Source: Oxalobacteraceae bacterium
Lineage (GTDB): Bacteria > Pseudomonadota > Gammaproteobacteria > Burkholderiales > Burkholderiaceae_D
Reading direction: 5' to 3'
DNA: 36,552 nucleotides
Assembly (NCBI GenBank): GCA_027485795.1
Contig: JAIXQK010000085.1
Location: 1-36,552 of the forward strand
The position numbers and the translations under genes were made by a program. Each line of letters begins with the position of its first letter. Position 1 is the first letter of the stretch. Shown piece by piece: positions 1-33,934 of the stretch. The notes under the pieces were generated by a model. That model worked only from the letters and a program-made list of their open reading frames with translations. It had not been told where the DNA came from and ran no database searches.

Positions 1-864
1 GAAGAAATGCTCGAAAACGAGCAAATCGATCTGGTTGCCCTTTGCACGCCAAGTGGTATTCATCCTGACCAGGCTGTGCTGGCGGCTGGGCACAAGGTCC
101 ACGTCATGACAGAGAAGCCCATGGCCACCCGCTGGAACGATGGTGTGCGCATGGTCAAAGCCTGTGATGAGGCTGGAGTTCGGTTGTTTGTGGTCAAACA
201 AAACCGTCGTAACACGACCCTGCAACTGCTCAAGCGAGCAGTTACCGAAAAACGCTTCGGCAAGATCCATATGGTCCACCTCAACGTTTTCTGGACCCGC
301 CCTCAGTCGTACTACGACCAAGGCAATGGCTGGCGCGGCACCTGGGAGTTCGACGGCGGTGCTTTTATGAACCAAGCTAGCCATTATGTTGATCTGCTTG
401 ATTGGCTGATTGGCCCTGTCGAAAAGGTGCAGGCCATGATGAGCACGACCCGCGACATTGAGGTCGAAGACACTGGGGTGCTGAACGTCAAGTGGCGTAA
501 TGGGGCGCTAGGCTCTATGAGCGTCACGATGCTCACTTATCCTCAAAATCTTGAGGGCAGTATTACGATCCTCGGCGAAAAAGGCACCGTGCGTATTGGA
601 GGTGTGGCAGTCAATGACATCCAACTTTGGCAATTCGACGAGCCTAAAGACTACGACCACCAAATTCAGGATGCGAATTATGAAACCACTTCAGTCTATG
701 GTTTTGGTCATCCCCTTTACTACAAGAACGTTGTCGATGTCATGCGAGGGGAAGCGGAGCCCGAGACTGATGGCCGCGAAGGCTTAAAGTCTTTGGAGCT
801 GCTAATTGCCGCTTACTTGTCCTCTCGAGACGGGAAGACGGTTTCATTGCCCCTGGAGTATTGA
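1..864 (+). CDS. wlbA: UDP-GlcNAcA 3-dehydrogenase, WlbA/WbpB type (5' partial)
   Basis: This is a Gfo/Idh/MocA-family oxidoreductase. Family knowledge: WlbA/WbpB oxidises C-3 of UDP-N-acetylglucosaminuronic acid with tightly bound NAD and, in several homologues, reoxidises NADH with 2-oxoglutarate. The reading frame is open from the first base, so the N-terminal Rossmann glycine motif lies outside the window; roughly 30-60 residues are missing compared with the usual 316-350. Visible are the EKP motif with its conserved lysine (codons near 115-123), the [17 protein letters not shown] segment typical of this subfamily (349-393) and the C-terminal beta-sheet domain. The first ATG at position 7 is internal and is not the start. 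The stop overlaps the next ATG by one base (TGATG). The following acetyltransferase and aminotransferase complete the known three-enzyme pathway, which makes the assignment firm. Confidence 0.9.
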
Positions 865-1445
865 TGAGTGTGACTATTCACCCCACAGCCATCGTTGACG
901 AAGGTGCGCAGATTGGCGAAGGCAGCCGCGTTTGGCACTGGGTTCATGTGTGTGGAGCCGCAAAGATTGGCAAAGGTGTCTCACTTGGTCAGAACGTATT
1001 TGTTGGCAATAAAGTGATCATCGGAGATCGATGCAAAATCCAAAACAACGTGAGCGTTTATGACAATGTAACGCTCGAAGAGGGGGTGTTTTGTGGTCCA
1101 AGCATGGTATTCACCAATGTGTATAACCCGCGTTCTTTGATTGAGCGTAAAAGCGAGTACCTTGACACATTAGTCAAGCGAGGCGCGACTTTGGGTGCTA
1201 ATTGCACGATTGTCTGCGGCGTCACCATCGGTGAATACGCCTTTGTTGGTGCGGGCACTGTAGTCAACAAAAATGTTCCTGCCTATGCCCTGATGGTTGG
1301 CGTGCCTGCTCGGCAGATCGGTTGGATGAGTGAATACGGCGAACAGATTCCACTGCCCATCAAAGGTCAGGGGCAATACCAATGCCCTTATACTGGCCAC
1401 CAATACGAATTGGCGGGCGAAAGCCTAAAGCGAGTTGATGCATGA
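864..1445 (+). CDS. wlbB: UDP-GlcNAc3NA N-acetyltransferase, WlbB/WbpD type
   Basis: A 193-residue left-handed beta-helix acyltransferase built of hexapeptide repeats (for example [16 protein letters not shown] at residues 5-20 and [17 protein letters not shown] near 109-125). Family knowledge: WbpD/WlbB, about 190 residues, transfers acetyl from acetyl-CoA to the 3-amino group of UDP-2-acetamido-3-amino-2,3-dideoxy-glucuronate, giving UDP-GlcNAc3NAcA in the cytoplasm. I chose ATG 864, which overlaps the upstream stop by one base (TGATG). A TTG three bases earlier (861) is in frame but adds only one residue. The gene ends in an ATGA overlap with the aminotransferase. The order dehydrogenase, acetyltransferase, aminotransferase is the classic wlbABC arrangement. 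Confidence 0.92.
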
Positions 1446-2542
1446 CAATCCCCTTTATCGATCTTAAGTCACAGTATCAGGCGCTGAAGACGTCGGTTGA
1501 CGCGCGTATTCACAAAGTGCTAGATCACGGCCAGTACATCATGGGCCCAGAGGTAAAAGAGCTTGAGGAGCGACTCGAAGCTTATACCGGTGCGCGCCAC
1601 TGCATAACCGTTGCTAGTGGAACCGAAGCCCTACTCATTTCACTCATGGCGCTGGGCATCAAGCCAGGCGACGAAATTATCACCACTCCGTTTACCTTTA
1701 TTGCGACTGCGGAGGTCATTGTCTTGCTCGGGGCTGTCCCAGTTTTTGTCGACATCGAACTGGACACCTGCAACATCAATGCGAGCCTGATAGAGGCAGC
1801 TATTACACCCAAGACTAAGGCCATTATGCCGGTTAGCCTGTACGGCCAACCAGCGGATATGGATGCAATTAATGCTATTGCAGTGCGGCACGGCAATATT
1901 CCAGTCATCGAAGATGCAGCACAGAGCTTTGGTGCTGAATACAAGGGCCGCAAAAGCTGCAATCTTTCGTCTATCGGTTGCACCAGTTTTTTCCCCAGTA
2001 AGCCACTTGGCTGCTACGGTGACGGGGGGGCGATTTTTACCAATGACGATGCATTGGCGCAAGCCATGCGCGAAATTCGTGTGCATGGTCAAAGCAAACG
2101 CTATGTGCATACACGTGTTGGTGTAGGTGGCCGAATGGACACGATTCAGTGTGCCGTCGTGCTAGCTAAGCTAGAGCGGTTTGACTGGGAGATAGAACAA
2201 CGCCTTGTAATTGGACAGCGCTACAACGAATGGATCGACAGCGCTGGATTGAAGCGAGTGCAACAAAGACCAGACCGTACCAGCGTCTTTGCCCAGTACA
2301 CCATACTTTTGGACCAGCGCGAAGATGTGCAGAAGCACTTTAGTGACTTAGGAATTCCTACGACGGTACATTACCCGATTCCACTCAATGAGCAACCGGC
2401 TTACAAACACCTGTGTTGTCCAGATTGCACGCCAGTAGCGCAGGCGGTGTCCAAACGGGTATTGAGCCTGCCTATGGGCTCTGACCTTTCTACTTTCGAT
2501 CAGCAATCCATCATGGAAAGCCTAAAGAGTGCAGTTTCTTGA
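1442..2542 (+). CDS. wlbC: UDP-3-keto-GlcNAcA aminotransferase, WlbC/WbpE type
   Basis: A 366-residue DegT/DnrJ/EryC1 PLP-dependent sugar aminotransferase. The PLP Schiff-base lysine is K187 in [15 protein letters not shown], and the ring-nitrogen aspartate is D158 in [11 protein letters not shown]. Family knowledge: WbpE/WlbC transfers the amino group of L-glutamate to the 3-keto sugar made by WbpB/WlbA, releasing 2-oxoglutarate, which WbpB then uses as oxidant. Length and active-site spacing match the family. The start is the ATG in an ATGA overlap at 1442-1445, and the end abuts the oxidase gene by a TGATG junction. A run of seven G at 2024-2030 encodes part of the conserved glycine motif, so slippage there would destroy the enzyme; I regard it as ordinary. 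Confidence 0.92.
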
Positions 2543-3657: not shown

Positions 3658-4659
3658 ATGGACATTAAGGGCAAAAAAATTGTAGTGGTCGGAGGCGCAG
3701 GCCTCATCGGTTCTCACACTGTTGATTGTCTTTTGAAGGAGGACATCAAGGAGGTAGTGGTCTACGACAATTTTGTGCGTGGTACCCGCGAGAACCTGGC
3801 CAACGCTTTACGCGACCCACGCGTTCGTATCTACGACGTGGGTGGCGATATCATGCAGACAGACATTCTGCAGTCAGCTTTTGACGGTGCTGATGGCGTT
3901 TTCCACCTCTCGGCGCTATGGCTTTTGCAATGTCACGAATACCCTCGCACGGCTTTTGACGTAAATGTGCGCGGAACCTTCAATGTCATGGAAGCCTGTG
4001 TGGCGAAAGGTGTCAAGCGCTTGGTGTATTCATCATCCGCCTCGGTTTATGGCGATGCCGTAGAAGAGCCGATGACCGAAGAACATCCATTCAACAATAA
4101 GAACTTTTACGGCGCCACTAAGATTGCTGGTGAGGCCATGCTGAGGGCCTTCCACCACCGCTATGGCCTGAACTTTGTCGGCCTTCGCTACATGAACGTG
4201 TATGGGCCTCGGCAGGACTACCACGGCGCCTACATCGCCGTGATTATGAAGATGTTGGACGCCATTGACCGCGGCGAGAGTCCCACCATCATGGGCGACG
4301 GCTCCGAGGCCTTCGACTTCGTGGCTGTGGAAGACTGCGGTCTTGCCAACGTGTGCGCCATGAAGGCCGATACTGTAGATGCCTTCTACAACGTGGGTAC
4401 TGGCAAGCGCACATCGCTCAAGGAACTGGCCGAGATGCTTATCCAGCTCACAGGTTGTACAAAGTCTATCCAATACGCATCGCGCAGCCAGGCCACGTTG
4501 GTGCGTAACCGTATCGGTTCGCCCAGAAAGGCGTCGGAAGAAATTGGCTTCACTGCCCGCATCGATCTGCTGGATGGACTGAACCGTCTGATCGAGTGGC
4601 GCGCTGCGCACAAGGCAGAAGTTGCTGCCAGGCGTTCTGCTGTGGGGCTGCCCGCGTAA
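3658..4659 (+). CDS. NAD-dependent nucleotide-sugar epimerase (GalE-like extended SDR)
   Basis: A 333-residue extended short-chain dehydrogenase with a GGAGLIG Rossmann motif (residues 12-18), D37 for NAD selectivity, the SSSASVYG strand (125-132) and the catalytic Y151-GAT-K155. It starts directly after the previous stop and has the best ribosome site of this part of the locus, AAGGAG at 3643-3648. It probably interconverts epimers of the diacetamido-uronic acid made by the preceding genes. Bordetella WbmF, a UDP-GlcNAc3NAcA 4-epimerase, is the comparison I would test first, although I cannot align it here. A plain UDP-glucose or UDP-GlcNAc 4-epimerase remains possible. The enzyme is cytoplasmic and has no signal peptide. 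Confidence 0.82.
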   Translation: MDIKGKKIVVVGGAGLIGSHTVDCLLKEDIKEVVVYDNFVRGTRENLANALRDPRVRIYDVGGDIMQTDILQSAFDGADGVFHLSALWLLQCHEYPRTAFDVNVRGTFNVMEACVAKGVKRLVYSSSASVYGDAVEEPMTEEHPFNNKNFYGATKIAGEAMLRAFHHRYGLNFVGLRYMNVYGPRQDYHGAYIAVIMKMLDAIDRGESPTIMGDGSEAFDFVAVEDCGLANVCAMKADTVDAFYNVGTGKRTSLKELAEMLIQLTGCTKSIQYASRSQATLVRNRIGSPRKASEEIGFTARIDLLDGLNRLIEWRAAHKAEVAARRSAVGLPA

Positions 4660-4665
4660 AGAGGT
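4660..4665 (+). promoter_or_regulatory. Ribosome binding site deciding the GTG start at 4673
   Basis: AGAGGT lies seven bases before GTG 4673 and supports that codon over the upstream TTG 4622, which would overlap the epimerase gene, and over ATG 4694, which has only a C-run in front of it. Confidence 0.5.
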
Positions 4666-4672
4666 CGAAATT

Positions 4673-5860
4673 GTGAATGCTAATACCCCCCCCATGCAGG
4701 TTCCCATTGCCCGCACCCAGTTGTCCGAGGACGAGATACAATGCGTTCTGGCGCCCCTGCGCAGCGGCTGGCTGGTGCAGGGGCCCAAAGTCCGGGAGTT
4801 CGAGGAAAAGTGGAGTGCCTTTACCGGAGCACAGCACTCCATCGCCGTTACTTCATGCACCACAGCGCTGCACCTCTCTCTGGCGGCGCTCGGATTCGGT
4901 CCGGGCGACGAAGCCATTGTTCCCGCCTTCACCTGGATCGCGACAGCCAATGTTGTCGAACATCTTGGTGGCAAGGTGGTTTTCTGTGACATCGACCTGG
5001 ATACCTTCAACCTGGACGTTGCCCAACTGGAAAGCAAAATCACATCACGGACGAAGGCCATCCTTCCGGTCCATCTCTTTGGCCTGGCTGCCGACATGGC
5101 GGCAATCAACTACCTAGCCAAGAAGCATCATCTCTGGATCGTAGAGGATGCCGCTTGTGGCTTTGGCGCCCGCTACAAGGGGCAGCATGTTGGCACCTTT
5201 GGCGATGCCGGTTGTTTCAGCTTCCATCCGCGTAAGTCGATCACCACTGGCGAAGGCGGCATGATCACCACCCAAAGTAGCGAATTGGCTGAGAAGCTGC
5301 GCCGTCTTCGGGATCACGGTGCCGCGATGAGCGACTTGCAGCGCCATTTGGGCGCCCGGCCCTACCTGCTGGCCGACCATCCCGATGCCGGCTACAACCA
5401 GCGCATGACCGACATCCAGGCAGCGCTGGGTTCGGCGCAGATGGAACGCGCGGCGGAGATTGTCACCGAGCGCCAGCGCCTGGCGGCAGTCTATGACCGC
5501 GCCTTCGCCGGCCTGTCCTGGCTGCGCACGCCGGTATGCCCGGAAGGCTACGAGCACGGCTACCAGAGCTATCCTTGCCTGTTCCAGCCTGAAGCCGCAA
5601 CGCCAGAGTCGATCCCGCGCATCAACGAGGCGCGCAACAAGTGGATGGACGATCTGCTGCAGGCGGGCGTGTCCACCCGCCCGGCTACGCATGCGGTGCA
5701 CATGCTGACTTACTACCGCGAGAAGTACAGCCTCAAGCCGGTCGACTTCCCCAATGCCTGGGCCGCTAACGACTGCAGCATCTCGCTGCCGCTGTTCCAC
5801 GGCATGACCGCAGCGGAGCAGGAACACGTGATCGAGCAAGTCCTGGTGAGAAAAGCCTGA
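4673..5860 (+). CDS. DegT/DnrJ/EryC1 sugar aminotransferase
   Basis: A second PLP sugar aminotransferase, 395 residues from GTG 4673. D159 (IVEDAACGFGA) and the Schiff-base lysine K188 in SFHPRKSITTGEGG are in place; this HPRK version is common in perosamine-synthase-like 4-aminotransferases and differs from the SKPLG version in WlbC. It probably installs an amino group, most likely at C-4, on a keto sugar that is then acylated by the downstream enzymes. It is followed without a gap by the amidotransferase (TGATG at 5858-5862). A run of eight C (4686-4693) lies between GTG 4673 and the alternative ATG 4694. Codon use is G+C-rich, unlike the genes on either side of the 4673-7755 block. The exact substrate is unknown. 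Confidence 0.85.
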   Translation: MNANTPPMQVPIARTQLSEDEIQCVLAPLRSGWLVQGPKVREFEEKWSAFTGAQHSIAVTSCTTALHLSLAALGFGPGDEAIVPAFTWIATANVVEHLGGKVVFCDIDLDTFNLDVAQLESKITSRTKAILPVHLFGLAADMAAINYLAKKHHLWIVEDAACGFGARYKGQHVGTFGDAGCFSFHPRKSITTGEGGMITTQSSELAEKLRRLRDHGAAMSDLQRHLGARPYLLADHPDAGYNQRMTDIQAALGSAQMERAAEIVTERQRLAAVYDRAFAGLSWLRTPVCPEGYEHGYQSYPCLFQPEAATPESIPRINEARNKWMDDLLQAGVSTRPATHAVHMLTYYREKYSLKPVDFPNAWAANDCSISLPLFHGMTAAEQEHVIEQVLVRKA

Positions 5861-7755
5861 TGTGTGGTGTAGCAGGACTGGTCAACCTTGGCGCTGAGCC
5901 GGTATCGCCCGTCATCCTCAAACGGATGACGGATGCGATCGCCCATCGCGGCCCGGATGGCGAGGGGCAATGGATAGAAGGCAATATCGGCCTGGGCCAC
6001 AGGCGGCTGGCCATCATCGACCTGTCGCCGGCGGGCCACCAGCCGATGATCAGCGCTGACCACCGCTACGTCATCTCCTATAACGGCGAGATCTACAACT
6101 ACCGCGAGCTGCGCGCCGAGCTGGAAACGGCCGGCTACTGGTTCCGTTCCAAGACCGATACCGAGGTCATGCTGGCCGCTTTTGCCCACTGGGGCGCCGA
6201 TGCGCTGTTGCGCTTCAACGGCATGTTTGCCGTGGTGCTGTGGGACCGCAAGGAAAAGCGTCTGCTGCTGGCGCGCGACCGCTACGGCATCAAGCCCCTG
6301 TACCTCAGCCGCCAGGGCCAGCGCCTAGCCTTCGCCTCCGAGCAGAAGGCCATCACCGCTCATCCTGAATTTCAGCGCGAAGTCGACCGCGAAGCCCTGC
6401 TGGAGTACTTCACCTTCCAGAACATCTTCACCGACCGCACCCTGCTGAAAGATGTGCAGTTGCTGCCGGCCGGGCATTACATGCTGGTCGAACTGGACCG
6501 CCCGGGCGCGCCATCCACCCTGCACCGCTACTGGGACTATCGCTTCCGCGAACCGAACCAGCCGGCAAGCAGGGAAGAATACCTGGAAGAACTGGACCGC
6601 CTCTTCCGCCAGGCAGTACAGCGCCAGCTGGTCAGCGATGTCGAACTGGGCGCCTATCTGAGCGGCGGCATGGACAGCGGCTCCATCACCGCCGTGGCGG
6701 CGCGCAATTTCCCCTACCTGAAAACCTTCACATGCGGTTTTGACCTGAGCTCTGCTTCCGGTATCGAACTGGGCTTCGACGAGCGGGTCAAGGCCGAAGC
6801 CATGTCGGCCCGCTTCAAGACCGAGCACTATGAAATGGTGCTCAAGGCTGGCGACATGGAACGCTGCCTGCCCAACCTTGCCTGGCACCTGGAAGAGCCG
6901 CGCGTCGGCCAGAGTTATCCAAACTATTACGCCGCCAAGCTGGCCAGCAAATTCGTCAAGGTGGTGCTCTCCGGCGGCGGCGGCGACGAGCTGTTCGGCG
7001 GCTATCCCTGGCGCTATTACCGCGCCGTGGTCAACCAGGATTTCGAGCACTACATCGACCAGTACTACGTATTCTGGCAGCGGCTGATTCCCAACAGTGT
7101 GCTGTCTAAGGTATTCGCGCCGGTATGGGGCGATGTCAAGCACGTCTGGACACGAGATATCTTCCGCAATGTTTTCCTCACCCACGACAACGAGCTTGAT
7201 CGCCCCGAGGACTACATCAATCACTCGCTGTATTTCGAGGCCAAAACTTTTCTGCATGGCCTGTTTGTAGTTGAGGATAAATTGAGCATGGCCCATAGCC
7301 TGGAGGCTCGTGTCCCTTTCATGGACAACGACCTGGTCGACTTTGCCATGCAATGCCCGGTGAACCTCAAACTGAACAATCTGGCAGAGGTGGTGCGAAT
7401 CAACGAGAACGAACCCAGCGGCAAGGCAATCAAGTATTTCGAGAAGACCCGCGATGGGAAGCAGTTGCTGCGCGACGTCATGCGCCGGCATATCCCGGCC
7501 GATATCACCGATGCAGAAAAGCAGGGTTTTTCTTCGCCGGACGCGAGCTGGTTTAAGGGAGAGAGTATCGATTTTGTGCGGCGCATGCTCTTGGGCAGTA
7601 ATGTGCGCCTCTATGAATATTTGGACCGGAATGCCGTTGGTTCGTTGGTCGGCCAGCATCTTGAAGGTAAAGAAAACCGTCGCTTGCTGATCTGGTCATT
7701 ACTAAATTTCGAACAATGGTTAAAGTCCATGGAAGTTGGGAGTAATAGTAGGTGA
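5860..7755 (+). CDS. Asparagine-synthase-like amidotransferase (probable uronic acid amidation)
   Basis: A 631-residue glutamine-hydrolysing asparagine synthetase homologue. C2 directly follows the initiator Met as the N-terminal nucleophile of the class II glutaminase domain (about residues 1-190; AHRGPDGEG at 28-36). The ATP-pyrophosphatase domain follows, with the PP-loop LSGGMDSGS near residue 267 and GGGGDELFGGYPWR near 371. In O-antigen loci such proteins (P. aeruginosa WbpS, Bordetella WbmI-type) turn the carboxyl of a sugar uronic acid into an amide. This fits here because the locus makes a uronic acid and free asparagine synthesis would be out of place. The G+C content falls along the gene, from about 67% in the line at 6241 to about 42% at 7681. 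Substrate specificity is inferred. Confidence 0.85.
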   Translation: MCGVAGLVNLGAEPVSPVILKRMTDAIAHRGPDGEGQWIEGNIGLGHRRLAIIDLSPAGHQPMISADHRYVISYNGEIYNYRELRAELETAGYWFRSKTDTEVMLAAFAHWGADALLRFNGMFAVVLWDRKEKRLLLARDRYGIKPLYLSRQGQRLAFASEQKAITAHPEFQREVDREALLEYFTFQNIFTDRTLLKDVQLLPAGHYMLVELDRPGAPSTLHRYWDYRFREPNQPASREEYLEELDRLFRQAVQRQLVSDVELGAYLSGGMDSGSITAVAARNFPYLKTFTCGFDLSSASGIELGFDERVKAEAMSARFKTEHYEMVLKAGDMERCLPNLAWHLEEPRVGQSYPNYYAAKLASKFVKVVLSGGGGDELFGGYPWRYYRAVVNQDFEHYIDQYYVFWQRLIPNSVLSKVFAPVWGDVKHVWTRDIFRNVFLTHDNELDRPEDYINHSLYFEAKTFLHGLFVVEDKLSMAHSLEARVPFMDNDLVDFAMQCPVNLKLNNLAEVVRINENEPSGKAIKYFEKTRDGKQLLRDVMRRHIPADITDAEKQGFSSPDASWFKGESIDFVRRMLLGSNVRLYEYLDRNAVGSLVGQHLEGKENRRLLIWSLLNFEQWLKSMEVGSNSR

Positions 7756-8702
7756 GGATGGTTTTTATCGGCGCCAGCGGCTTTGGCCTGCGTGCCGCCG
7801 AAACTTTGGCCAGATTGGCGGATTGTCAGTTGGTCGGCGTAGTTACGGCGCCCCGTCAGTTTTCAATTTCTTACCGACCGACAGGTGTTACTAACGTTCT
7901 TTTTGCTGACCTAAGTGAGTTCGCGTCCGCTCGCGACATCCCGTGCCATATTCTGAACAGAGGGATGAACGACCCGGAACTGTTTAGCGTGGTCTGCAAT
8001 TGGCAGCCGGATTGTTTTGTTGTGGTCGGCTGGTATCACATGGTCCCTGCTTCGTGGCGAAAAATTGCTCCTGCATACGGCCTCCACGCCTCCCTCTTGC
8101 CAAACTATAGTGGGGGCGCGCCGCTAGTCTGGGCTATGATCAATGGCGAAGCAAGGACTGGAATTACTCTTTTTCAGTTTGACGATGGTGTGGATAGCGG
8201 TCCCATTCTCGGCAGTCTCGCAACTGATATTGCGCATGACGATACCATAGCGACTCTCTACTCGCGAATTGAAGATTTGGGCTTAAAGCTTCTCAAGGAA
8301 AAGCTCCCCCTATTAGCGAGGGGAGCGGGCAAGTTCATCGTGCAAGACGAAAGTCAACGCCGTGTATTTCCGCAACGTGGTCCTGAAGACGGAAAGATCG
8401 ACTGGACGCAACACGCTAATCGTATTCATGATTTCATTCGTGCCCAGACACGGCCCTACCCTGGGGCGTTTTCGTGCTTTCAATCTTCGAGGATCACTAT
8501 TTGGCGAACCTCATTACTGGAGCAGAATAGCGACAACCTTCAACCGGGTGAACTTGCAATGAGTGGAGGACGCCTTGTGGTTGGCTGTGGACAAAGCACG
8601 TGTCTTCAAGTTGTATTGCTAAATGAAAATGGGTGCGATATCGACGCAGCTGCATGGGCGGAAAGTAAGTCACTCGGCTCGAGCGAATTATTCGATGCCT
8701 AA
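7752..8702 (+). CDS. Formyltransferase-fold protein lacking the usual catalytic Asn
   Basis: A 316-residue protein with the N-terminal formyltransferase domain and the C-terminal OB-like part (KIDWTQHANRIHDFIRA, about 218-234) of the Fmt/ArnA family. Family enzymes use 10-formyltetrahydrofolate to formylate an amine. The catalytic His and Asp are present as H112 (HASLLP) and D148 (DDGVDSG), with the 36-residue spacing of ArnA H104/D140. The position matching the catalytic Asn (ArnA N102) is G110. The partner aminotransferase, hydrolase and methyltransferase genes argue for acylation of an amino sugar, not initiator tRNA. GTG 7752, in a GTGA overlap and nine bases after GGGAG, is preferred to ATG 7758. 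An acyl donor other than formyl is conceivable. Confidence 0.78.
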   Translation: MRMVFIGASGFGLRAAETLARLADCQLVGVVTAPRQFSISYRPTGVTNVLFADLSEFASARDIPCHILNRGMNDPELFSVVCNWQPDCFVVVGWYHMVPASWRKIAPAYGLHASLLPNYSGGAPLVWAMINGEARTGITLFQFDDGVDSGPILGSLATDIAHDDTIATLYSRIEDLGLKLLKEKLPLLARGAGKFIVQDESQRRVFPQRGPEDGKIDWTQHANRIHDFIRAQTRPYPGAFSCFQSSRITIWRTSLLEQNSDNLQPGELAMSGGRLVVGCGQSTCLQVVLLNENGCDIDAAAWAESKSLGSSELFDA

Positions 8703-8720: not shown

Positions 8721-9923
8721 ATGAACCTTTGCTTATCAATCAGGCCGGTTCGGGCACTCCCCTATCCTTACCGAGCAGGCATCGCGATCTCCAACGATGC
8801 TGAGTTTATGTCTGCCGAATTTTTTGAAGGGTTGATGGCGTTCCTCAACAGCTCAGGGCCATCGCCGCTGGGAATCGGTCTCGGCCTCGAGGTAACTTCG
8901 AGTGCTTTTTTTTATTCGGCACATCCTTACAGCGTCTCCTATTTCGATGGGGCTGAAGTAGATAGTCGACCAACGCCGTTTGCGACGCGTATGGCTGACT
9001 ATCTTCGCGCGGGTTGGATTGATACCTTGCATGCTTACGGTGATTTCGATTGCGTTGGGGGTTTTGTGCGGCCGCATGCCGAGCGGACGTTCGACACTTT
9101 GAGTCGACTTTGCACGGTCATCCCAGTATTCACAAATCACGGTGACAGCGCCAATTGTCAGAACATCGGAGGCGATGCTGCTTATCACAAGGGAGATGTG
9201 CCTAGCGAAGCTTGCTATCACACCGACTTGCTCGCTGCGCATGGCACCCGTTACATCTGGACCGACACAGCGGTAGTCGGTGAGACGCAGCAACAGCGCA
9301 GCGGGTGGCGTCGGTTTCTGCCCCAAGGCGCATCAACACCAGCTCCACCCTTTATGGCTAATTGGCAGTTGCAAGATGGTCGAACTATGCAACGGTTCGT
9401 GCGTTTTCGTGGGACTGGTGCGAATGCGCCCAACCTGTCTTCACTGGCATATCAGATAGAGCGGCTGGACCTGCCGGGCCTCTACCGTCAGAACGGAATC
9501 GCCGTGGTGTATCAGCACCTCGGCGTGTTGCATCGCAGCGGAGGAAAGTGTACTGCAGCAACATTTGAGGCAATGCTGGAACGCCCCGAAATATATCTTG
9601 CTCCTTGGTACCGCTTGGCACGGGAGGTAGGCGAGGGACGACTCTGGCTACCCGGGTTAGCTCGATTACTGAAATATAGCGACATGCTCTCTGGGCTTGG
9701 CGTCGAGATGGGCCACAAAGGAGCGATCAAGCTTACCAGCGACCGGCCAGTTGGCGAGCCGGAGGATTACTTCCAAGGGCTAACCCTTTATGTTGAACCT
9801 GGTATGACTCCCGTCGTAACTTATGGCGAACGTCAGCTGACAATTGTTCATAACGGTCCTGACGAAAGTGGCCGCTATTCGATTTCAATTCCATTTAAGA
9901 AAACAACAAATATATGGCACTGA
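8721..9923 (+). CDS. Putative NodB-like carbohydrate hydrolase/deacetylase (WbmS-like?)
   Basis: A 400-residue protein without a clear membrane segment. I read it as a divergent NodB-type (CE4-like) barrel. The first strand ends in ISNDAEF with D26 and E28, later segments carry H104 (DTLHAYGDFD) and H140 (TNHGDSANCQNIG), and an AHGTRYIWTDT strand follows near 173. These are acid/His positions of the sort used for metal binding, but the motifs are not canonical, so the assignment is tentative. Genes with this context (amidotransferase, formyltransferase, methyltransferase) occur in Bordetella wbm loci, where WbmS is described as deacetylase-like; that comparison is from memory. Start ATG 8721 has AAGGGA four bases upstream. 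It overlaps the methyltransferase gene by ten bases. Confidence 0.5.
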   Translation: MNLCLSIRPVRALPYPYRAGIAISNDAEFMSAEFFEGLMAFLNSSGPSPLGIGLGLEVTSSAFFYSAHPYSVSYFDGAEVDSRPTPFATRMADYLRAGWIDTLHAYGDFDCVGGFVRPHAERTFDTLSRLCTVIPVFTNHGDSANCQNIGGDAAYHKGDVPSEACYHTDLLAAHGTRYIWTDTAVVGETQQQRSGWRRFLPQGASTPAPPFMANWQLQDGRTMQRFVRFRGTGANAPNLSSLAYQIERLDLPGLYRQNGIAVVYQHLGVLHRSGGKCTAATFEAMLERPEIYLAPWYRLAREVGEGRLWLPGLARLLKYSDMLSGLGVEMGHKGAIKLTSDRPVGEPEDYFQGLTLYVEPGMTPVVTYGERQLTIVHNGPDESGRYSISIPFKKTTNIWH

Positions 9924-10696
9924 CCGATTGTGATCTTCAACGGATTCATGCTGCGGGCTGGAAGTTTCCGCCCGATCTATGGGCAACGCTCAATGATTAC
10001 GAAAAGAGCTTCGCTGTCCTAGAGTTCGACGGAATTAAAACGCCAAATTACTATCGTGAACGTCTCGCCGCGCTTGGTTTTGCCCAACGCGGCCGGGTTC
10101 TTGATGCGGCTTGCGGAATGGGGCAGTGGGCGAACGCGCTTGCCGCGCTTGGCAATCAGGTTGATGGCGTAGACCTCATGGAGTCGCGAATCGACGTTGC
10201 CAAGGCTTTGTCGGCGGCGCAAGGTAACGTTTGTGAGTTTCAGACAGGTTCTATCGAGAAGTTGCCTTTTTCGGATTGCTCATTTGATGGGGTGTTCTGT
10301 TATGGGGCATTTATGTTTACAGACATGCCGCTTACGTTAAGCGAGTTCGCGCGCGTGTTGAAGCCTGGAGGGCGCCTCTACCTTAATGGCAACACATGGG
10401 GCTGGTATGCGCATCTGATCCTTGATCGTGGTTTTAGGGGCGGAAATTATTCTCTTATACATGCGGCATTGCGTATGATCGCGCGGACACTTGTTGGTAG
10501 ATCCACACAAATCGTCATTACTGAAGGTTGGTTGCGCAATAAATTGCAGCAAGCTGGTTTCTCTGTTTTGAAACTTGGGGCGGAAGGGGCTGTGTCGCTG
10601 AACACGGGTTATGTCAATGCGCCGCCGCCTGCCTATCCGCCGACGTTTTATGGTTTGCGGTCGATAATCGAGCTTGTGGCTGAACGTACCGCATGA
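9914..10696 (+). CDS. Class I SAM-dependent methyltransferase
   Basis: A 260-residue methyltransferase of the Methyltransf_11 type. Motif I is VLDAACGMGQW (residues 62-72), the acidic ribose-binding residue is in DGVDLME (84-90), and motif IV/post-IV is visible in SFDGVFCYGAFMFTD with RVLKPGGRLYLNGN after it. The C-terminus carries TEGWLRNKLQQAGFSV, the usual final helix-strand pair. It starts inside the previous gene (ten-base overlap) and ends in ATGA with the next. Position in the modification block suggests O- or N-methylation of a sugar residue before export, perhaps of the terminal residue to stop chain growth. The target is unknown. Confidence 0.82.
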   Translation: MALTDCDLQRIHAAGWKFPPDLWATLNDYEKSFAVLEFDGIKTPNYYRERLAALGFAQRGRVLDAACGMGQWANALAALGNQVDGVDLMESRIDVAKALSAAQGNVCEFQTGSIEKLPFSDCSFDGVFCYGAFMFTDMPLTLSEFARVLKPGGRLYLNGNTWGWYAHLILDRGFRGGNYSLIHAALRMIARTLVGRSTQIVITEGWLRNKLQQAGFSVLKLGAEGAVSLNTGYVNAPPPAYPPTFYGLRSIIELVAERTA

Positions 10697-12018
10697 AGAT
10701 AGGGCTTTACGGCGGCTTGGCGAACAATTGCTATGTTTTCGCCAAAGCTCTGCGACAGGCTGGGCAGGATGTCATATTCATTCGTGACCGAAATGACCGT
10801 TATGCCTTTAGCCAGCCGGTGTGGGAAGACGTCGCGTTTGTCATGGGCTACGAAGATGTTGCCGGATCCTCTTCGTTGTCTTGGGAGCACTGGAAACGTA
10901 TAGAGGTAGATCAACAATGGCTGCCGCCGATTTGGCTAGTAGACCCACTGGACATGCAAAGCAATCCGATCGAGATCGGCGATAGCACAATCCCTCTCTG
11001 GTTGAAGCCTTTGGCTAACCAATGTATTTTCCAAGGCAAACATCGGTCGGGTGTTGTCGCAACAATGCGGACTTGTGATGTGCTTTTGGTTTGCGGAATC
11101 GAGGCTGCCATTCTCGCAATGGTGTCCGGTCGCCCTTATATTATTTGGCCGCATGGTGGGGACATTCGAATGGCAGCCGGCCTTGCGACTCCACCAAAGG
11201 GTATGCGCGCCCGAATGAGCTACGAATTGCAGAAGTTGTTGCTTCTCGCGGCCTATGATCGAGCTGGTTATGTTGGAACCCACGATGCGAGAGCACTTGG
11301 CGGCTCCGCCGGCGATGTAGGAAAGGCCCTACGTAATACAAGTTTCATTCACCTGCCGATCCCGGTGTCTTGTAGAGCTAGAGCAAGCAAGACAGAGCGG
11401 AATTTTAGGTTATCTGCGTTGTGTGAGCGCCTAAATCTTCCAGCAATGCAGGGGGGGGTAATTGGTTTGATTCCTTCCAGGGTTGACTTCACCTGGAAAG
11501 GGCATGACCTCCTACTCGGCGCATTGAAACGTGTAACTAGTCGAGAGAGGCTGCACTTGATTTTTTCGGGTTGGGGTAACGATTACGCACATGCGAAAAC
11601 ATATGTCGCCCAACACGGGCTTGAGGCGCAAGTGACTTTTTTACCTTTCTCATTATCGAAGCCTGTATTGGCTGAATTTTTCACGCTGGTAGATTTTGCG
11701 GTGGACCAGTTTCGTTTTATGGGAACCTACGGCACCGCCTTGGTCGAAGCGCTTGCAGCCGGCTGCCCCACACTGATGTGGATTGATGAACATGCCTTTC
11801 ATGCTCGCGGCTGGGAGCCTCCGCCGGTGTTAAATGCGCAGAGTGAGGTGGATATAGTTGAATGTTTGGAAAATATTGCCTGCGGGGCTATCGATTTGGA
11901 AGATATCTCTCAACGCTCCCAGGCCTGGATCCAACGTGTGCACGCCCCTGAAGCAGTATTGCCGCATCTATTACACTGTTTCGAAAAGATGCAGTCCTCT
12001 GTGCTGGAGATAGCTTGA
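10693..12018 (+). CDS. Glycosyltransferase, GT-B fold (GT4-like)
   Basis: A 441-residue GT-B-type protein. The N-terminal domain begins MKIGLYGGLANN and includes IIWPHGGDIRMA near residues 150-161. The C-terminal domain has LIPSRVDFTWKGHDLLL (probably the nucleotide-binding region, near 257-273) and the signature FAVDQFRFMGTYGTALVEALAAGCPT (about 335-360, quoted in parts in the finding on this group). It shares the V-D-Q plus E-A-x-A-x-G pattern with the proteins at 16025 and 18136. It should transfer a sugar from a nucleotide donor to the lipid-linked intermediate at the cytoplasmic membrane face. Joined by ATGA to the methyltransferase and TTGA to wzx. A run of eight G at 11451-11458 falls in the interdomain region. 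Confidence 0.8.
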   Translation: MKIGLYGGLANNCYVFAKALRQAGQDVIFIRDRNDRYAFSQPVWEDVAFVMGYEDVAGSSSLSWEHWKRIEVDQQWLPPIWLVDPLDMQSNPIEIGDSTIPLWLKPLANQCIFQGKHRSGVVATMRTCDVLLVCGIEAAILAMVSGRPYIIWPHGGDIRMAAGLATPPKGMRARMSYELQKLLLLAAYDRAGYVGTHDARALGGSAGDVGKALRNTSFIHLPIPVSCRARASKTERNFRLSALCERLNLPAMQGGVIGLIPSRVDFTWKGHDLLLGALKRVTSRERLHLIFSGWGNDYAHAKTYVAQHGLEAQVTFLPFSLSKPVLAEFFTLVDFAVDQFRFMGTYGTALVEALAAGCPTLMWIDEHAFHARGWEPPPVLNAQSEVDIVECLENIACGAIDLEDISQRSQAWIQRVHAPEAVLPHLLHCFEKMQSSVLEIA

Positions 12019-13502: not shown

Positions 13503-13524
13503 TATTTGAATTAAATGGATTTTT

Positions 13525-15111
13525 ATGAAAAAACTAAAAATTTTTTTTGGCCCCAACGTTGTCAAGAGTCCTCTCCTTAGTGCTTGGTTAAGCGATCGAG
13601 GTTATAACGAATCTTGGGTTGCCGGGATCGATGATGTGGCGTTGCGGAGGGCTTGGGAACGACTGGCAAGAGAGAGTGTGCCTGGCCTATTTTTTGATTA
13701 TCCAATTGATGCTAAACAGGATCTGCAAGCGGTTGACGCATTTGTCGCGCATGTGATTAAAAATGGCGGCGAATGGTATTACGCCCCTCGGCCCAATGAC
13801 TATGTGGAGGTTGCCGACGCTGCGATGGTTGGTATGTCGCCAGCCTGCTCCCTCGGGGTCCCCTCATTGAAAGAAAGGGTAAAACCCTACGCCAAACGCG
13901 TTATTGACGCATTGCCACGGCATTGGAGGAAGCCAGTACGTAACCTCGCATTGCGCTTGTACCGCAATTCATCAGTCGTTGCACTTAACTATGGCTCGTC
14001 GCCAGATTCTCGAGGGGGTGATACAGAGCGGGATTTCAGCCCTGAAGTCAAGACACCGGCCTCGCTTCGTCGATTCAAGTTTGGCTGGAAAAGCTGGCAA
14101 GCACCGCGCGAGATTTTGAAACGCGATCTGTTGGATCGTGTCGCTGCGTTCTTCCCGCAGCCAAGTAACATCCATGTCATTGTACTCAATCAGTGCAATC
14201 TCAAGTGCGTGATGTGCCCTTATCACTCTCCGAAATACAAGCCGTATCAGACATCGGGCTATTTTGACGAGCGCAAATCTCTTTCCGTCGAAACCTTCAA
14301 GAAGGTGGCAGAGTATGCGGGAGCCCGGAAGGTCGGCCTACAGTTCGGCCAGATTGAGGAAGTGCTGATGCATAAGCAGTTCTTCGATTTTTTAGACATC
14401 TCGAAAGAGTGTGGCGTGCCGATTGTACATGTGACAACCAATGGTGTGCTCTTGGATCAAGCCAAGGCCGAACGACTTGCCGCCAGTGGGGTTACGTCCG
14501 TGATGTTCAGCATTGACTCGGTAAACCCAGAAACTTATCGCGAAATACGGGGTAGTGATCTCTCGCAATTAGAAAAAAATATTAAATTCTTTATGCCATT
14601 GGCTAAACGTGCCGGCATTACCGTCACGGCGTCATTTATTTTGCAACCGCAGGCGCTCGCAGAGCGAGATCAATTTCTAGAAAAATGGAAAGCGTTAGGG
14701 ATTGATCAAGTCACATTCTACGTTTTGACAGAGAACGACTTGAAAACCGGTGAAATGATACGTGATGGTGGGGAGATGTATGACAAAGGCAAGCGCTACC
14801 CATGTGCATCTCCGTGGACCCAAACGGTTATCTTCCCGGAAGGAGAGGTTTCCTTGTGCTGTAAAACGATGTCAGATGTTGGGTGGCGCGGCGTGGTTTC
14901 TATGGGTAGCGTCCCTGAACTGTCTATGGAAGCCGTTTGGGATGGTGATAGGTATCGTAAAGTCCGGGAAGAGTTACTAGACAATACTTTTGACCAGTTC
15001 CCTGTCTGCGTCAATTGCGAAATTTGGTCCGCATCGACCAGTCTCGTGGAAGAGGGTAAAGACTATCGGCGGACATTTAACGAGACGATGGAAACCTATC
15101 AGTTCTTATGA
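13525..15111 (+). CDS. Radical SAM/SPASM protein with a long N-terminal extension
   Basis: A 528-residue protein. The radical SAM cluster motif is CNLKCVMC with C224, C228 and C231. SAM-contact features follow (FGQIEEVLMHKQ; VTTNGVLL; MFSIDSVNPETYREIRG). The C-terminal SPASM/Twitch region has cysteines C427, C445, C446, C495 and C498 that could bind auxiliary iron-sulfur clusters. Residues 1-215 precede the barrel and show no motif I recognise. Family members carry out radical chemistry on peptides or small molecules; some occur in polysaccharide loci with unknown substrates. The gene starts at ATG 13525 after a 22-base gap with no clear ribosome site and overlaps the next gene by ATGA. A run of eight T (13541-13548) lies at codons 6-8. 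Confidence 0.85.
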   Translation: MKKLKIFFGPNVVKSPLLSAWLSDRGYNESWVAGIDDVALRRAWERLARESVPGLFFDYPIDAKQDLQAVDAFVAHVIKNGGEWYYAPRPNDYVEVADAAMVGMSPACSLGVPSLKERVKPYAKRVIDALPRHWRKPVRNLALRLYRNSSVVALNYGSSPDSRGGDTERDFSPEVKTPASLRRFKFGWKSWQAPREILKRDLLDRVAAFFPQPSNIHVIVLNQCNLKCVMCPYHSPKYKPYQTSGYFDERKSLSVETFKKVAEYAGARKVGLQFGQIEEVLMHKQFFDFLDISKECGVPIVHVTTNGVLLDQAKAERLAASGVTSVMFSIDSVNPETYREIRGSDLSQLEKNIKFFMPLAKRAGITVTASFILQPQALAERDQFLEKWKALGIDQVTFYVLTENDLKTGEMIRDGGEMYDKGKRYPCASPWTQTVIFPEGEVSLCCKTMSDVGWRGVVSMGSVPELSMEAVWDGDRYRKVREELLDNTFDQFPVCVNCEIWSASTSLVEEGKDYRRTFNETMETYQFL

Positions 15112-16028
15112 CTGCTAGAGAATTCATCTACCGAGCCATCTATAAGCTAAAACAAGCCGTTCTGCGTCCGCGTGACCCTTTTGTTTTTGAGGAAACCAAT
15201 CCACTGGTAGGTTACCGCTGCTATGGAGGGGAGGTTGAACGTCTCGCGCCACTAACCGAACCGGCTGATGTCCCACTCTCGAACAGCGTAATGCAAACGC
15301 GTGGTCTGGTCGAAGTCGCAGGAGTTGTATTTGATTTGAGGCGCGATGGCGTGTACCGCTTTTATCGATTACCCAGTCTCAGTGAGCAGCGGGTTGTCTG
15401 CACACGAGGAAGGGAATCAATACTGCAGTCGGTCGGATACTTGCTCGGCTACGGCGATGACGATGACAAAATTTCAGAATCCGATTTGATCAAGGGCCTA
15501 TCCCGACGGCGTGTTGTTGGTGGCTGCGGTACGCTTTCCCGTGTAACCCAGAAAATTCTGTCCTACGTCCAGGTTCCCTCACGTGTGGTCGCCCTGATGA
15601 CTCTCGATCCGTGGGGTGGTCAAGACGACGGCCATACCTTGCTCGAGATTGCAGATTATGATGAGAACTGGTTTCTTTATGATCCCTCTTTTGGGGTGTG
15701 TTTCAAAAAAGACGGGAGGCGACTTTCTTTGGTCGAATTCTCGAAGTCGAGAAATGAAAGGCTAGAACTAGAGTATCTACCGGTAGGTTCCGGCTATAGC
15801 CGTTTTGCTAGTCAAGGTTACGGTTACGATTTCTGGATCGGGGAACGCTTTTTGTCTCCCGGTCGTTTGTGGGACTGGTATCGCCGGATCGGCGACCTTC
15901 CGTTGGTGTTTGACAAGGACCGTCTGTATTGTCCCCAAAGCAGTGTTAAGACTGGTAGCGATCGAAGGATATCAAGTCGCTATGTGATTTTGTCTGATGG
16001 CGACTTCCAAAAGAGATTCTATTCATGA
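15108..16028 (+). CDS. Transglutaminase-like cysteine-fold protein
   Basis: A 306-residue protein not obviously in a named family. I recognise the transglutaminase-like core: C140 in GGCGTLSRVTQKIL, the VPSRVVALM strand after it (156-164), H176 in DDGHTLLEIAD and D192 in WFLYDPSFG. The order and spacing (36 and 16 residues) match the Cys-His-Asp triad of transglutaminase-like and arylamine-N-acetyltransferase-like enzymes. Such folds do amide cleavage, amide exchange or acyl transfer. There is no signal peptide or clear membrane helix, so a cytoplasmic role acting with the upstream radical SAM protein (ATGA overlap) and the downstream glycosyltransferase (ATGA overlap) is likely. An aminoacyl or amide modification of the sugar is one hypothesis. 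Function is unassigned. Confidence 0.7.
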   Translation: MTAREFIYRAIYKLKQAVLRPRDPFVFEETNPLVGYRCYGGEVERLAPLTEPADVPLSNSVMQTRGLVEVAGVVFDLRRDGVYRFYRLPSLSEQRVVCTRGRESILQSVGYLLGYGDDDDKISESDLIKGLSRRRVVGGCGTLSRVTQKILSYVQVPSRVVALMTLDPWGGQDDGHTLLEIADYDENWFLYDPSFGVCFKKDGRRLSLVEFSKSRNERLELEYLPVGSGYSRFASQGYGYDFWIGERFLSPGRLWDWYRRIGDLPLVFDKDRLYCPQSSVKTGSDRRISSRYVILSDGDFQKRFYS

Positions 16029-17245
16029 TCGTTACATTGCTCAAGATGCTTAAGAAATGCCTGCGGTTGCTAATCGAATTTTTGGAACTCCCTTTTCTGA
16101 TTGGAATCGCGATCCTGTCACGATTGGTGCCGCGGCCGATCGACATCGGCCTTGGTCCAATGCCGATGATCAACAACATCTATCACAAGAAGGCGTTGGT
16201 TCAGCAGGGGTATTCGGTAGAGACCTTCGTCGATGATCTCTATTTCATTACGGATGAATTTGACCGGAAGTTTTTGCCAACCTCCCGCATTATGCGCAGA
16301 CTTCTTCGCGAAACAAATTTTCTATTCCTGTTCGCGATATTTCGGTATCGCTGCCTTTACGTGTATTTCACTGGCGGCCCACTCTACGCAACCGCACTGT
16401 TGTGGCGATTCGAACCCCAACTTTATCGACTTGCGGGTGTGCGCACCGTAATCATGCCTTACGGCGGTGATGTGCAGGATCTCTTAAGAACGCCAAATCT
16501 AGTCTTTCGCCATGTAATGGCAAAAGACTATCCTCTGCAAAGGCATACCCGCAACACCATCGCGAAGAAAATCGACATCTGGAGTTCGCATGCCAACCAC
16601 GTTATTTCAGGCTGCGACTGGGTTGATTATATGCATTTCTGGCACACCCTGATGGTTGCGCACTTCTCCATTGATACTCAGCGTTGGCAGCCAACGAATA
16701 AGACGTCTCTCTCCACGCCAGTCGATTCAGTGCGGCCGTTCAGGGTGTTGCACGCGCCAAATCACAAAGCAATCAAAGGAACAGATTTCTTTATCCGGGC
16801 AGTGGAGGAATTGCGGGTAGAAGGTGAGGAAATCGAACTGGTCTTGGTGCAGAAACTACCAAACGATGAAATTCGGCGACTGATCGATACCGTAGATGTA
16901 GTGGTCGACCAGTTGATCATTGGCTGGTATGCGATGTTTGCAATTGAGGCCATGGCCATGGGCAAGCCAGTACTTTGTTATCTTCGAGACGATCTCGAAA
17001 GACTTTATGTTGATGCGGGATTGCTTGAAGAGAATGAGATTCCACTGATTAATTGCTCGCCGAGGACTGTCAAGGAAACCTTGCGTAAGCTGATGCATGA
17101 CCCAGAGGGGCTGAAAGAAACGGGGCGCCGTGGTCCCGATTATGTTAAGCGCCATCACTCGGTCGAATCGGTGGGGGAGGTGTTTGCTCAAATCAACAAG
17201 AGCATTGGGTTATTTCCGAAGGGTAGTCAGGATTTTGCGCTATGA
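16025..17245 (+). CDS. Glycosyltransferase, GT-B fold
   Basis: A 406-residue GT-B-like protein. A hydrophobic stretch near residues 15-35 (FLELPFLIGIAILSRLV) may attach it to the membrane. It contains VIMPYGGDVQDLL (near 141-153), comparable to the PHGGD motif in the 10693 protein, and FRVLHAPNHKAIKGTDFFI (near 239-257), a common donor-domain strand pattern. VDVVVDQLIIGW and AIEAMAMGKPVL close the donor site (about 290-318). It probably adds one sugar of the repeat unit. Both ends are ATGA overlaps, so it is translationally coupled to the transglutaminase-like gene and the downstream dehydrogenase. Donor and linkage cannot be read from sequence. Confidence 0.8.
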   Translation: MIVTLLKMLKKCLRLLIEFLELPFLIGIAILSRLVPRPIDIGLGPMPMINNIYHKKALVQQGYSVETFVDDLYFITDEFDRKFLPTSRIMRRLLRETNFLFLFAIFRYRCLYVYFTGGPLYATALLWRFEPQLYRLAGVRTVIMPYGGDVQDLLRTPNLVFRHVMAKDYPLQRHTRNTIAKKIDIWSSHANHVISGCDWVDYMHFWHTLMVAHFSIDTQRWQPTNKTSLSTPVDSVRPFRVLHAPNHKAIKGTDFFIRAVEELRVEGEEIELVLVQKLPNDEIRRLIDTVDVVVDQLIIGWYAMFAIEAMAMGKPVLCYLRDDLERLYVDAGLLEENEIPLINCSPRTVKETLRKLMHDPEGLKETGRRGPDYVKRHHSVESVGEVFAQINKSIGLFPKGSQDFAL

Positions 17246-18117
17246 GGAAAATTCTTGTTACGGGTGCTAGCGGGCTGATCGGAGCACGCCTATTGCAGTG
17301 TCTTGATAAGGAGAATGAAGTATTTGCAGTGGCCCGGGCGGGCAGTGTGCCCGTTGCTACCCATACGTTGAACATTGATCTTGGCCAGCCATGGTCGGCA
17401 ACTGCACTGCCCAAGGATATCGACATCATCGTGCACCTGGCGCAATCGAATCATTATCGAGAGTTCCCGCAGCGAGCCGAAGATGTTTTCAATGTTAATA
17501 CAGCGAGTACAGTGCGGCTGCTTGCTTATGCTCGGGAAATTGGGGTCAAGCAATTCGTGCTGGCGTCGTCCGGGGGTATCTATGGTACCCGCTCGGATAG
17601 CTTCTCCGAAGACGAGGAAATTGTCGCAAAGGGCGAGTTGGGCTTTTACTTGGGGACCCGACTTTGTTCAGAGTTGCTGTCCGATAGTTACGCGTCGTTC
17701 ATGAACGTTATCAGCTTGCGTTTCTTCTTTGCGTACGGGCCGGGGCAGCGGTCTCAGATGCTTATCCCGCGGCTGGTCAGTTCCGTCCGTAATGGAACAC
17801 CTATCAGGCTGATTGGCGAGGATGGTCTGAAGATTAATCCAATCTATGTTGACGATGCGGTTCGTGCGGTACAGGCAGCAATGGTTCTGCAGGGCAGCCA
17901 CAAAATAAATGTGGCAGGTCCAGAGGTGTTGAGCCTGCGCAAAATCGCGGAGACGATAGGCGATGCTCTAGGGAGAAGGCCAGAGTTCGAGATTCTTCCC
18001 GCAAGTGGCAGCGCTGATCTGATCGCCGATATCCGGCGCATGAGCTTTATGTTGGATGAGCCTGGCATTTTCTTTGCAAACGGTATAAAAGCCTACATCT
18101 CAAGCTTGAGTGTTTAA
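17242..18117 (+). CDS. NAD(P)-dependent SDR epimerase/dehydratase-like protein with Arg in place of catalytic Lys
   Basis: A 291-residue extended SDR with VTGASGLIG (residues 6-14), the central strand LASSGGIYG (107-115) and the FFFAYGPGQRS substrate-domain motif. The active-site pattern is Y136-LGT-R140 where the family has YxxxK, so the catalytic lysine is replaced by arginine. The protein is also shorter than most sugar epimerases (about 310-340). It may be a reductase with altered chemistry, a partner subunit, or inactive. It overlaps the preceding glycosyltransferase by ATGA and is separated by 18 bases from the next gene, where base composition shifts sharply. The substrate is presumably a nucleotide sugar. 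Confidence 0.75.
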   Translation: MRKILVTGASGLIGARLLQCLDKENEVFAVARAGSVPVATHTLNIDLGQPWSATALPKDIDIIVHLAQSNHYREFPQRAEDVFNVNTASTVRLLAYAREIGVKQFVLASSGGIYGTRSDSFSEDEEIVAKGELGFYLGTRLCSELLSDSYASFMNVISLRFFFAYGPGQRSQMLIPRLVSSVRNGTPIRLIGEDGLKINPIYVDDAVRAVQAAMVLQGSHKINVAGPEVLSLRKIAETIGDALGRRPEFEILPASGSADLIADIRRMSFMLDEPGIFFANGIKAYISSLSV

Positions 18118-23304: not shown

Positions 23305-23486
23305 CCATGAAGTCACTAGGTGCAGCATCCACATTTCTTATCCTTGTGTGGTTTTTCCTTCTGATTGCGGTGTTTGTGATTGTCACAATACCCGCAGTGG
23401 GACGTGTTACTAGTCTGCTACCCGAGGTTTTTTGGAGGGTTCGCGAAGTGATCTATCCGCTTTTCTTTAGTCCTTCTCTATATTGA
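23301..23486 (+). CDS. Small single-pass membrane protein of unknown function
   Basis: A 61-residue frame starting with ATG in an ATGA overlap with the UPF0104-like gene and ending four bases before the next gene. One long hydrophobic helix covers about residues 9-32 (FLILVWFFLLIAVFVIVTIP), with a positively charged N-terminus and a short aromatic C-terminal tail. Nothing else in the space between the two membrane genes competes as a coding frame on the + strand, and the tight packing argues that it is real. It could be a small subunit of the following membrane glycosyltransferase. I do not recognise the family. Confidence 0.6.
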   Translation: MTMKSLGAASTFLILVWFFLLIAVFVIVTIPAVGRVTSLLPEVFWRVREVIYPLFFSPSLY

Positions 23487-33920: not shown

Positions 33921-33934
33921 GGGGGTTGCACGCC

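Follow-up and report, generated by a model that had tools for sequence, protein, structure and literature searches.

Amide-linked groups are carried by many bacterial surface sugars and, to our knowledge, the enzymes responsible have been identified in few cases. In the Wbp/Vim linking-sugar pathway of Porphyromonas gingivalis and Tannerella forsythia, the product is described as a uronamide that carries an amide-linked amino acid (PMC7468200), and enzymes of the WbpS type are reported to make uronamides in O antigens (PMC3684757, PMC7468200). The chemistry of the transglutaminase (TG) fold runs through a cysteine thioester and is described as apt for using or breaking amides (PMC4241560). Among radical S-adenosylmethionine (rSAM) enzymes, the twitch is described as a truncated SPASM domain that binds one auxiliary cluster (PMC9012708). 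Here we analyse two neighbouring genes, one for an rSAM protein of 528 amino acids (aa; 13525..15111, + strand) and one for a probable TG-fold protein of 306 aa (15108..16028, + strand), in a contig of an Oxalobacteraceae bacterium (JAIXQK010000085.1). We refer to the whole stretch of 36,552 nucleotides as the window.

We found that the unit which recurs in other genomes is a larger module, consisting of an AsnB-type enzyme, aminotransferases, a formyltransferase, a methyltransferase, a protein without assigned family, glycosyltransferases (GTs) and short-chain dehydrogenase/reductase (SDR) proteins. The module is rare. Our preferred reading, to which we give a probability of about 40%, is that the rSAM/TG pair is part of this surface-glycan module, that the module is common to distant bacteria and that it builds and tailors an amino or uronamide sugar. 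The component parts are of known kinds; their combination was not found in print, and the literature that we searched (open-licence papers) described no glycan locus with an rSAM/TG pair. That much of the gene set recurs in distant genomes of the Nitrospirota group points to a mode of surface-sugar decoration that has not been described.

The gene module in the window and in other genomes

A search of genome contigs with the rSAM protein returned 19 named loci, namely one Nitrospirota metagenome-assembled genome (L008) and 18 cyanobacterial loci. A further locus of the same rSAM clade was found on a Calothrix plasmid (L004). Among 295 genomes drawn from the phylum of L008, some rSAM match at E up to 1e-30 was present in 25, and a single one of them, G1111, gave a close match (E 2.5e-94). 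The other 294 genomes of that sample are all absent from the 398 sampled from the phylum of the window, so that the two phyla are taken to differ. Finally, the TG domain of G1111 led to G1159 (stretch L079) among 146 genomes of the class of G1111; no plasmid was found with this domain. In samples of the family (97 genomes) and the class (369 genomes) of the window, the rSAM clade was seen only in the window's own genome, the best other matches being 8.1e-11 and 1.7e-31, respectively.

Nine window families are shared by L008: AsnB, the DegT-type protein at 4622, the SDR at 3658, rSAM, the SDR at 17242, the GT at 16025, the methyltransferase, the GT at 10693 and the protein at 8721. Directly after its rSAM gene, L008 encodes a protein of 720 aa, one half of which is a methyltransferase and the other a TG domain that matches PF01841 over threshold (4.2e-7). 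G1111 shares twelve families in near-identical order; named after their window counterparts, its genes run 861, 1442, 3658, 4622, AsnB, formyltransferase, 8721, methyltransferase-TG, GT 10693, rSAM, GT 16025, ABC-transporter genes and SDR 17242. Here, too, a methyltransferase of the type found at 9914 is fused to a TG domain, and G1159 carries the module together with such a fusion. The Cys, His and Asp of the TG domain are invariant across the three fusions. Against the PDB, the fused TG domains gave peptide N-glycanase as their best match, which was not significant (E 0.031). The sole match of a fused-TG profile among 398 genomes of the window's phylum (G141) turned out to be an unrelated membrane protein and was discarded. 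What the sequences themselves establish is the existence of the module, a gene order nearly collinear with that of G1111, and the predicted catalytic residues.

The predicted genes of the window are on the + strand, and their content is that of a surface-polysaccharide locus: sugar-nucleotide enzymes, GTs, a Wzx-type flippase at 12015, an initiating sugar transferase at 33310 (PF02397) and a CapD-type dehydratase at 33926. A preliminary description of this DNA, made from the sequence alone, had placed the rSAM/TG pair within a glycan locus, and the surrounding genes bear this out. It had also treated the two genes as a coupled pair; the unit that recurs is the wider module, which is absent from its account.

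In the window the module includes a hexapeptide sugar acyltransferase (861..1445, +; 55% in G1111 and L079) and a DegT-type aminotransferase (1442..2542, +; 40% in G1111). An FAD protein resembling L-2-hydroxyglutarate oxidase (2539-3657) lies inside the glycan operon and has no counterpart among the open reading frames (ORFs) of at least 150 aa in G1111. It is followed by the NDP-sugar SDR of the module (3658..4659, +; 61% in G1111, 41% in L008 and L079), a second DegT-type aminotransferase, PseC/ArnB-like (4622..5860, +; 57% in G1111, 46% in L008), the AsnB-type glutamine amidotransferase with an N-terminal Cys (MCGVAG; 5860..7755, +; 68% in G1111, 45% in L008, 44% in L079) and an ArnA-like sugar N-formyltransferase (7752..8702, +; 37.5% in G1111). 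After the conserved protein without assigned family (8721..9923, +) come the methyltransferase (9914..10696, +), which matches the methyltransferase half of the fusions (G1111 40%/236, L008 47%/150), a GT (10693..12018, +; 32% in G1111, 25-29% in L008) and the Wzx-type flippase (PF01943; 12015..13502, +). In L008, G1111 and L079 the flippase is replaced by ABC-transporter genes, as read by eye. Next stands the rSAM gene (37% in L008, 39% in G1111) with the TG gene, then a GT (16025..17245, +; 34% in L008, 41% in G1111, 34% in L079) and a short-chain NDP-sugar epimerase/dehydratase-like protein (17242..18117, +; 38% in L008, 45% in G1111, 38% in L079). Further downstream there is a hydrophobic ORF of 61 aa (23301-23486), between 22321-23304 and 23491-25434, which perhaps encodes a small membrane protein.

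The protein at 8721-9923 had no match in Pfam, NCBIfam, PHROG or the PDB. It has relatives in L008 (26%), G1111 (33%) and L079; in the window's order it occurred in 1 of 200 genomes, its own. Five members were aligned (window 8721-9923, L008:8731-9621, L057:3476-4741, L079:7860-9023 and L076:17803-19218), and D26, H104, H140 and H266 are invariant in all five rows. We tried and rejected an identity as a CE4 enzyme, since hhalign gave a probability of 0.1, compared with 99.8 for two halves of the CE4 set (row L090, a wrong reading frame, was left out), and Pfam gave nothing of note. The family is also present on a plasmid of Alicyclobacillus dauci, where the listed neighbours are not glycan genes.

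The radical SAM protein and the probable transglutaminase-fold protein

The two ORFs were found as they had been described before, together with the ATGA overlap between them; an overlap of the TG gene with the GT gene had been reported as well, and it is likewise 4 bases long (at 16025), as is the GT/SDR overlap at 17242. The assignment of the first protein to the rSAM enzymes also held, as both Radical_SAM (PF04055, 1.1e-16) and SPASM (PF13186, 4.8e-11) matched over their gathering scores, and the three cysteines of the CxxxCxxC motif at 224/228/231 are invariant in an alignment of 19 rows. The protein has cysteines at positions 108, 224, 228, 231, 296, 427, 445, 446, 495 and 498. The five that the preliminary description had listed as SPASM cysteines (427, 445, 446, 495 and 498) are thus all present; C446 varies in the alignment, so that four and not five are conserved (C427, C445, C495 and C498).

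Because only four auxiliary cysteines are conserved, the domain appears twitch-like, and we rejected a full SPASM domain with two auxiliary clusters (for which about seven auxiliary cysteines are needed) despite the PF13186 match over threshold. The sequence fits a twitch-type rSAM protein with one predicted auxiliary cluster, as in BtrN: the rSAM profile matched the BtrN auxiliary domain in the PDB at 2e-9, next to MoaA at 4.6e-10. None of the 25 NCBIfam families shown reached its cut-off (the best, TIGR04311 and TIGR04317, had 80 of 400 and 79 of 380 bits, respectively). A structure model had a mean pLDDT (predicted local distance difference test) of 57, with most of the core at high confidence and about 200 N-terminal residues without an assigned fold. 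Its Foldseek neighbours were BlsE, DesII, SuiB, MoaA and BtrN (E 1.9e-11 to 2.9e-10; template modelling scores by query length 0.33-0.41). BlsE and DesII act on sugars, and the protein is similar to enzymes by which sugars and cyclitols are oxidised or rearranged (BtrN, DesII and BlsE). Two plasmid loci with other rSAM genes may be mentioned here. On a plasmid of Deltaproteobacteria bacterium Smac51 (L006:9947-13928), a more distant rSAM gene lies beside DegT (46%) and AsnB (59% to that of the window), with a relative of the window gene at 18136 (34%) nearby; a plasmid of Brachyspira hyodysenteriae (L007) has several adjoining rSAM/SPASM genes, accompanied by rfb sugar genes and a gene for an ATP-grasp amidoligase.

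For the second protein, C140, H176 and D192 had been noted in transglutaminase order; the residues are there and align with the Cys, His and Asp columns of TG domains. The PF01841 match covers residues 131-193; at E 0.0048 it has 17.6 bits, less than the gathering score of 23, and a genome-wide search gave 19.9 bits. With a profile built from eight TG domains of other genomes the protein scored 7.8 bits and ranked first among 32 window proteins; none of 2000 shuffles scored as high (821 gave any score, the best being 2.0). A TG fold is therefore probable, with moderate support from about 65 residues. The protein is read as cytosolic, having no hydrophobic N-terminus by eye. Only its own copy was found among 398 genomes of the phylum and 21 of the genus; searches of genome contigs and viral contigs (both by short exact patterns, six of them for the genome contigs) and of plasmids and phages gave no relatives. 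The AlphaFold model, made from the single sequence as there were no relatives for an alignment, had a pLDDT of 35.

Linkage of the two genes

The rSAM and TG genes are adjacent in the window and in L008 and one gene apart in G1111. Both L008 and G1111 were found through rSAM and not through TG, and that a TG lies within 10 kb of rSAM at both has a chance of roughly 2e-4 (0.0237 x 0.0087, assuming an even spread); a product of 5e-6 also counts the window, which was chosen for its pair. In 15 control genomes with other rSAM genes (excluding G1111, G858 and G1159), no PF01841 match at E up to 0.5 was seen in the fetched stretches (0/15), and two TG profiles agreed; the stretches covered up to 19.5 kb around rSAM and were shortened by contig ends in L062, L064, L065 and L069. 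In the rSAM tree, the window and G1111 are joined (97/89), L008 stands beside the cyanobacteria (95/94) and the clade is set apart from six outgroup rows (98/96). This topology puts the glycan-plus-TG context on both deep branches; the branches of the window and G1111 are long, and the fine placement is unsure.

Several results weigh against the preferred reading. In the 19 cyanobacterial loci of the rSAM clade, no TG came up with phmmer (window TG as query) or with two TG profiles (best E 0.77), nor with BLAST, which covered 18 of the 19 with the TG domain of L008 as query. If all 21 other loci of the clade are counted, two TG loci have a chance of about 0.1 and are not rare; it is consequently the glycan loci, the shared gene order and the fusion that carry the case, and not the pair alone. 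G1159 lacks an rSAM gene of the clade, both in its 19.9-kb stretch and genome-wide (best match 7.4e-43, on another contig), and was itself found through TG, so that it gives no independent count of TG presence. The preliminary description had asked whether the pair occurs together in other glycan loci, and the answer is divided: an rSAM gene of the clade occurs with a TG domain in the three glycan loci found to carry the clade (the window, L008 and G1111), and a tight pair is not supported, in view of G1159 and the cyanobacterial loci. Furthermore, the window TG matched the fused TG domains with a probability of 0.8% and ranked fourth of 32, and 27 of 2000 shuffles were as good; beyond the general TG pattern, the sequences do not demonstrate homology between the two. 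Either the two TG types are separated by a long divergence, or the recruitment of a TG took place on two occasions. Lastly, the TG identity itself is probable and not proven because chance frames score close to it: when the eight-domain profile was run against all frames of at least 60 aa in 41 loci, the window included, the window TG reached 8.9 bits (E 0.3) and chance frames 7.6-7.8.

These observations raise the question whether the window neighbour is accidental, or not a TG at all, so that it looks like the TG domains in the fusions (L008, G1111 and G1159) by coincidence. Such a coincidence would fit the missing homology between the two TG types, the moderate TG scores of the window protein and the lack of TG in the cyanobacterial loci; TG genes are common, as all 19 genomes searched had at least one match (1-12 per genome). 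On the other hand, the TG gene has ATGA overlaps on both sides, and both glycan loci that were found through rSAM carry a TG, with the low rough chance given above. We regard an accidental neighbour as unlikely.

Potentially, the two enzymes could act on the same glycan with different targets, rSAM preparing a keto sugar for amination and TG serving as a hydrolase, either an amidase or a deamidase, by which an amide is trimmed or reversed. The control rSAM loci without TG included relatives of the window DegT in 8 of 15 cases and of AsnB in 5 of 15, the TG is kept in G1159 without rSAM, and BtrN is reported to work with an aminotransferase in butirosin (PMC9012708). Against separate targets speaks the close spacing of the two genes in the window, L008 and G1111, and we consider this explanation rather doubtful.

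The cyanobacterial loci point in a different direction. In 18 of the 19, the rSAM gene of the clade lies near a different, protein partner, mostly 195-252 aa long, with a recurring C-terminal tail of the NPYIPTTCS or PHIPFTT type. In these loci (L004, L009-L026; for example L010:8759-9382 and 9614-11002) the partner protein has no Pfam match (Pfam was run on three), and a relative of a giant kinase/AAA protein is found near rSAM in 18 of the 19. The set looks like an uncharacterised system of an rSAM enzyme and a precursor protein, and the rSAM clade links the module, with its defined genes, to it.

By analogy, the rSAM enzyme of the window, and perhaps the TG, could modify a peptide or protein destined for attachment to the glycan, much as in clusters for ribosomally synthesised and post-translationally modified peptides (RiPPs) or lasso peptides, or in C-terminal protein glycosylation. 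An AsnB-type enzyme together with a TG-fold protein is reminiscent of lasso-peptide clusters. The cyanobacterial type of tail is absent from all six frames of the window, though, and the immediate surroundings of the pair showed no peptide gene, the gaps from 10693 to 18117 being at most 22 bp (small overlapping genes are not excluded). This speaks against the unseen small peptide that had been proposed earlier as an alternative substrate. The window AsnB keeps its N-terminal Cys and reaches 237 bits where the lasso-cyclase cut-off is 525, and the TG gave no lasso-type family. A lasso-peptide system was rejected on the missing peptide gene and the cyclase score; for a RiPP recognition element and for an acyl carrier protein, the analysis covered the family scans. 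We find a peptide or protein substrate improbable.

Proposed chemistry and comparison with known systems

On our preferred reading, that the pair belongs to the surface-glycan module, the DegT aminotransferases together with the acyltransferase and the formyltransferase would produce N-acylated amino sugars, and the AsnB-type enzyme, like WbpS, would amidate the carboxylate of a sugar to give a carboxamide. The chemistry of the rSAM and TG steps is what we infer from the enzyme types. The twitch rSAM enzyme may remove a hydrogen from a sugar carbon, with the auxiliary cluster as the electron acceptor, and would then oxidise the sugar (in a BtrN-like manner) or invert it. The TG-fold enzyme may form a thioester at Cys140 from an amide, the donor being a uronamide or an aminoacyl group, and pass it on to an amine on a sugar or to water. 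The methyltransferase at 9914 probably modifies the same group; since its relatives in L008, G1111 and G1159 are fused to a TG domain, methylation and amide chemistry would take place on one group.

The earlier proposal of an amide-linked group on a sugar seems plausible. In a more specific version, an rSAM enzyme from a new clade would first oxidise or invert the sugar, and the TG-fold enzyme would then build an amide bond, or exchange one, on a sugar intermediate in the cytosol (a uronamide or an aminoacyl amino sugar); TG would have been recruited twice into the same module in distant bacteria, once stand-alone and once fused to a methyltransferase. We put this forward as a possibility, on balance somewhat doubtful. 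If true, a TG-fold enzyme that places amides in concert with radical chemistry would be a mechanism that current annotation would not predict.

Among described TG-fold proteins, HvyA of Caulobacter is also a Cys-His-Asp protein of a capsule locus, and its catalytic residues are reported to be needed (PMC4241560). The differences are that HvyA belongs to the BTLCP family, is exported by a signal sequence and limits capsulation, and that the term "radical SAM" is absent from that text (PMC4241560). In the window TG no signal sequence is visible by eye; membership in BTLCP was rejected, since PF01841 was the single family to match at E up to 0.01, with the signal sequence judged by eye. For the rSAM protein, BtrN is similar in being a twitch enzyme with a four-Cys auxiliary cluster that acts on an aminocyclitol (PMC9012708). 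It differs in size, with PDB chains of about 270 aa compared with 528 aa here, and in its context, since butirosin is an antibiotic and not a surface glycan.

With respect to the pathway as a whole, the Wbp/Vim system differs in the way the amino acid is attached, which is ascribed to the acetyltransferase-like VimA after deacetylation by VimE, a CE4 enzyme (PMC7468200); the window protein at 8721-9923 has no relation to CE4 by profile, and neither "radical SAM" nor "transglutaminase" occurs in the main text of that source. The window AsnB resembles the uronamide-making enzymes of the WbpS type. It is over the cut-off of asn_synth_AEB (452 compared with 267 bits), and an assignment to eps_aminotran_1 (TIGR03108) was rejected at 448 bits, below the cut-off of 816.9. 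The likeness between the two systems lies in the combination of amino-sugar enzymes with an AsnB-type amidotransferase, which is the uronamide-making WbpS in the Wbp/Vim pathway and the AsnB-type enzyme of the module in the window.

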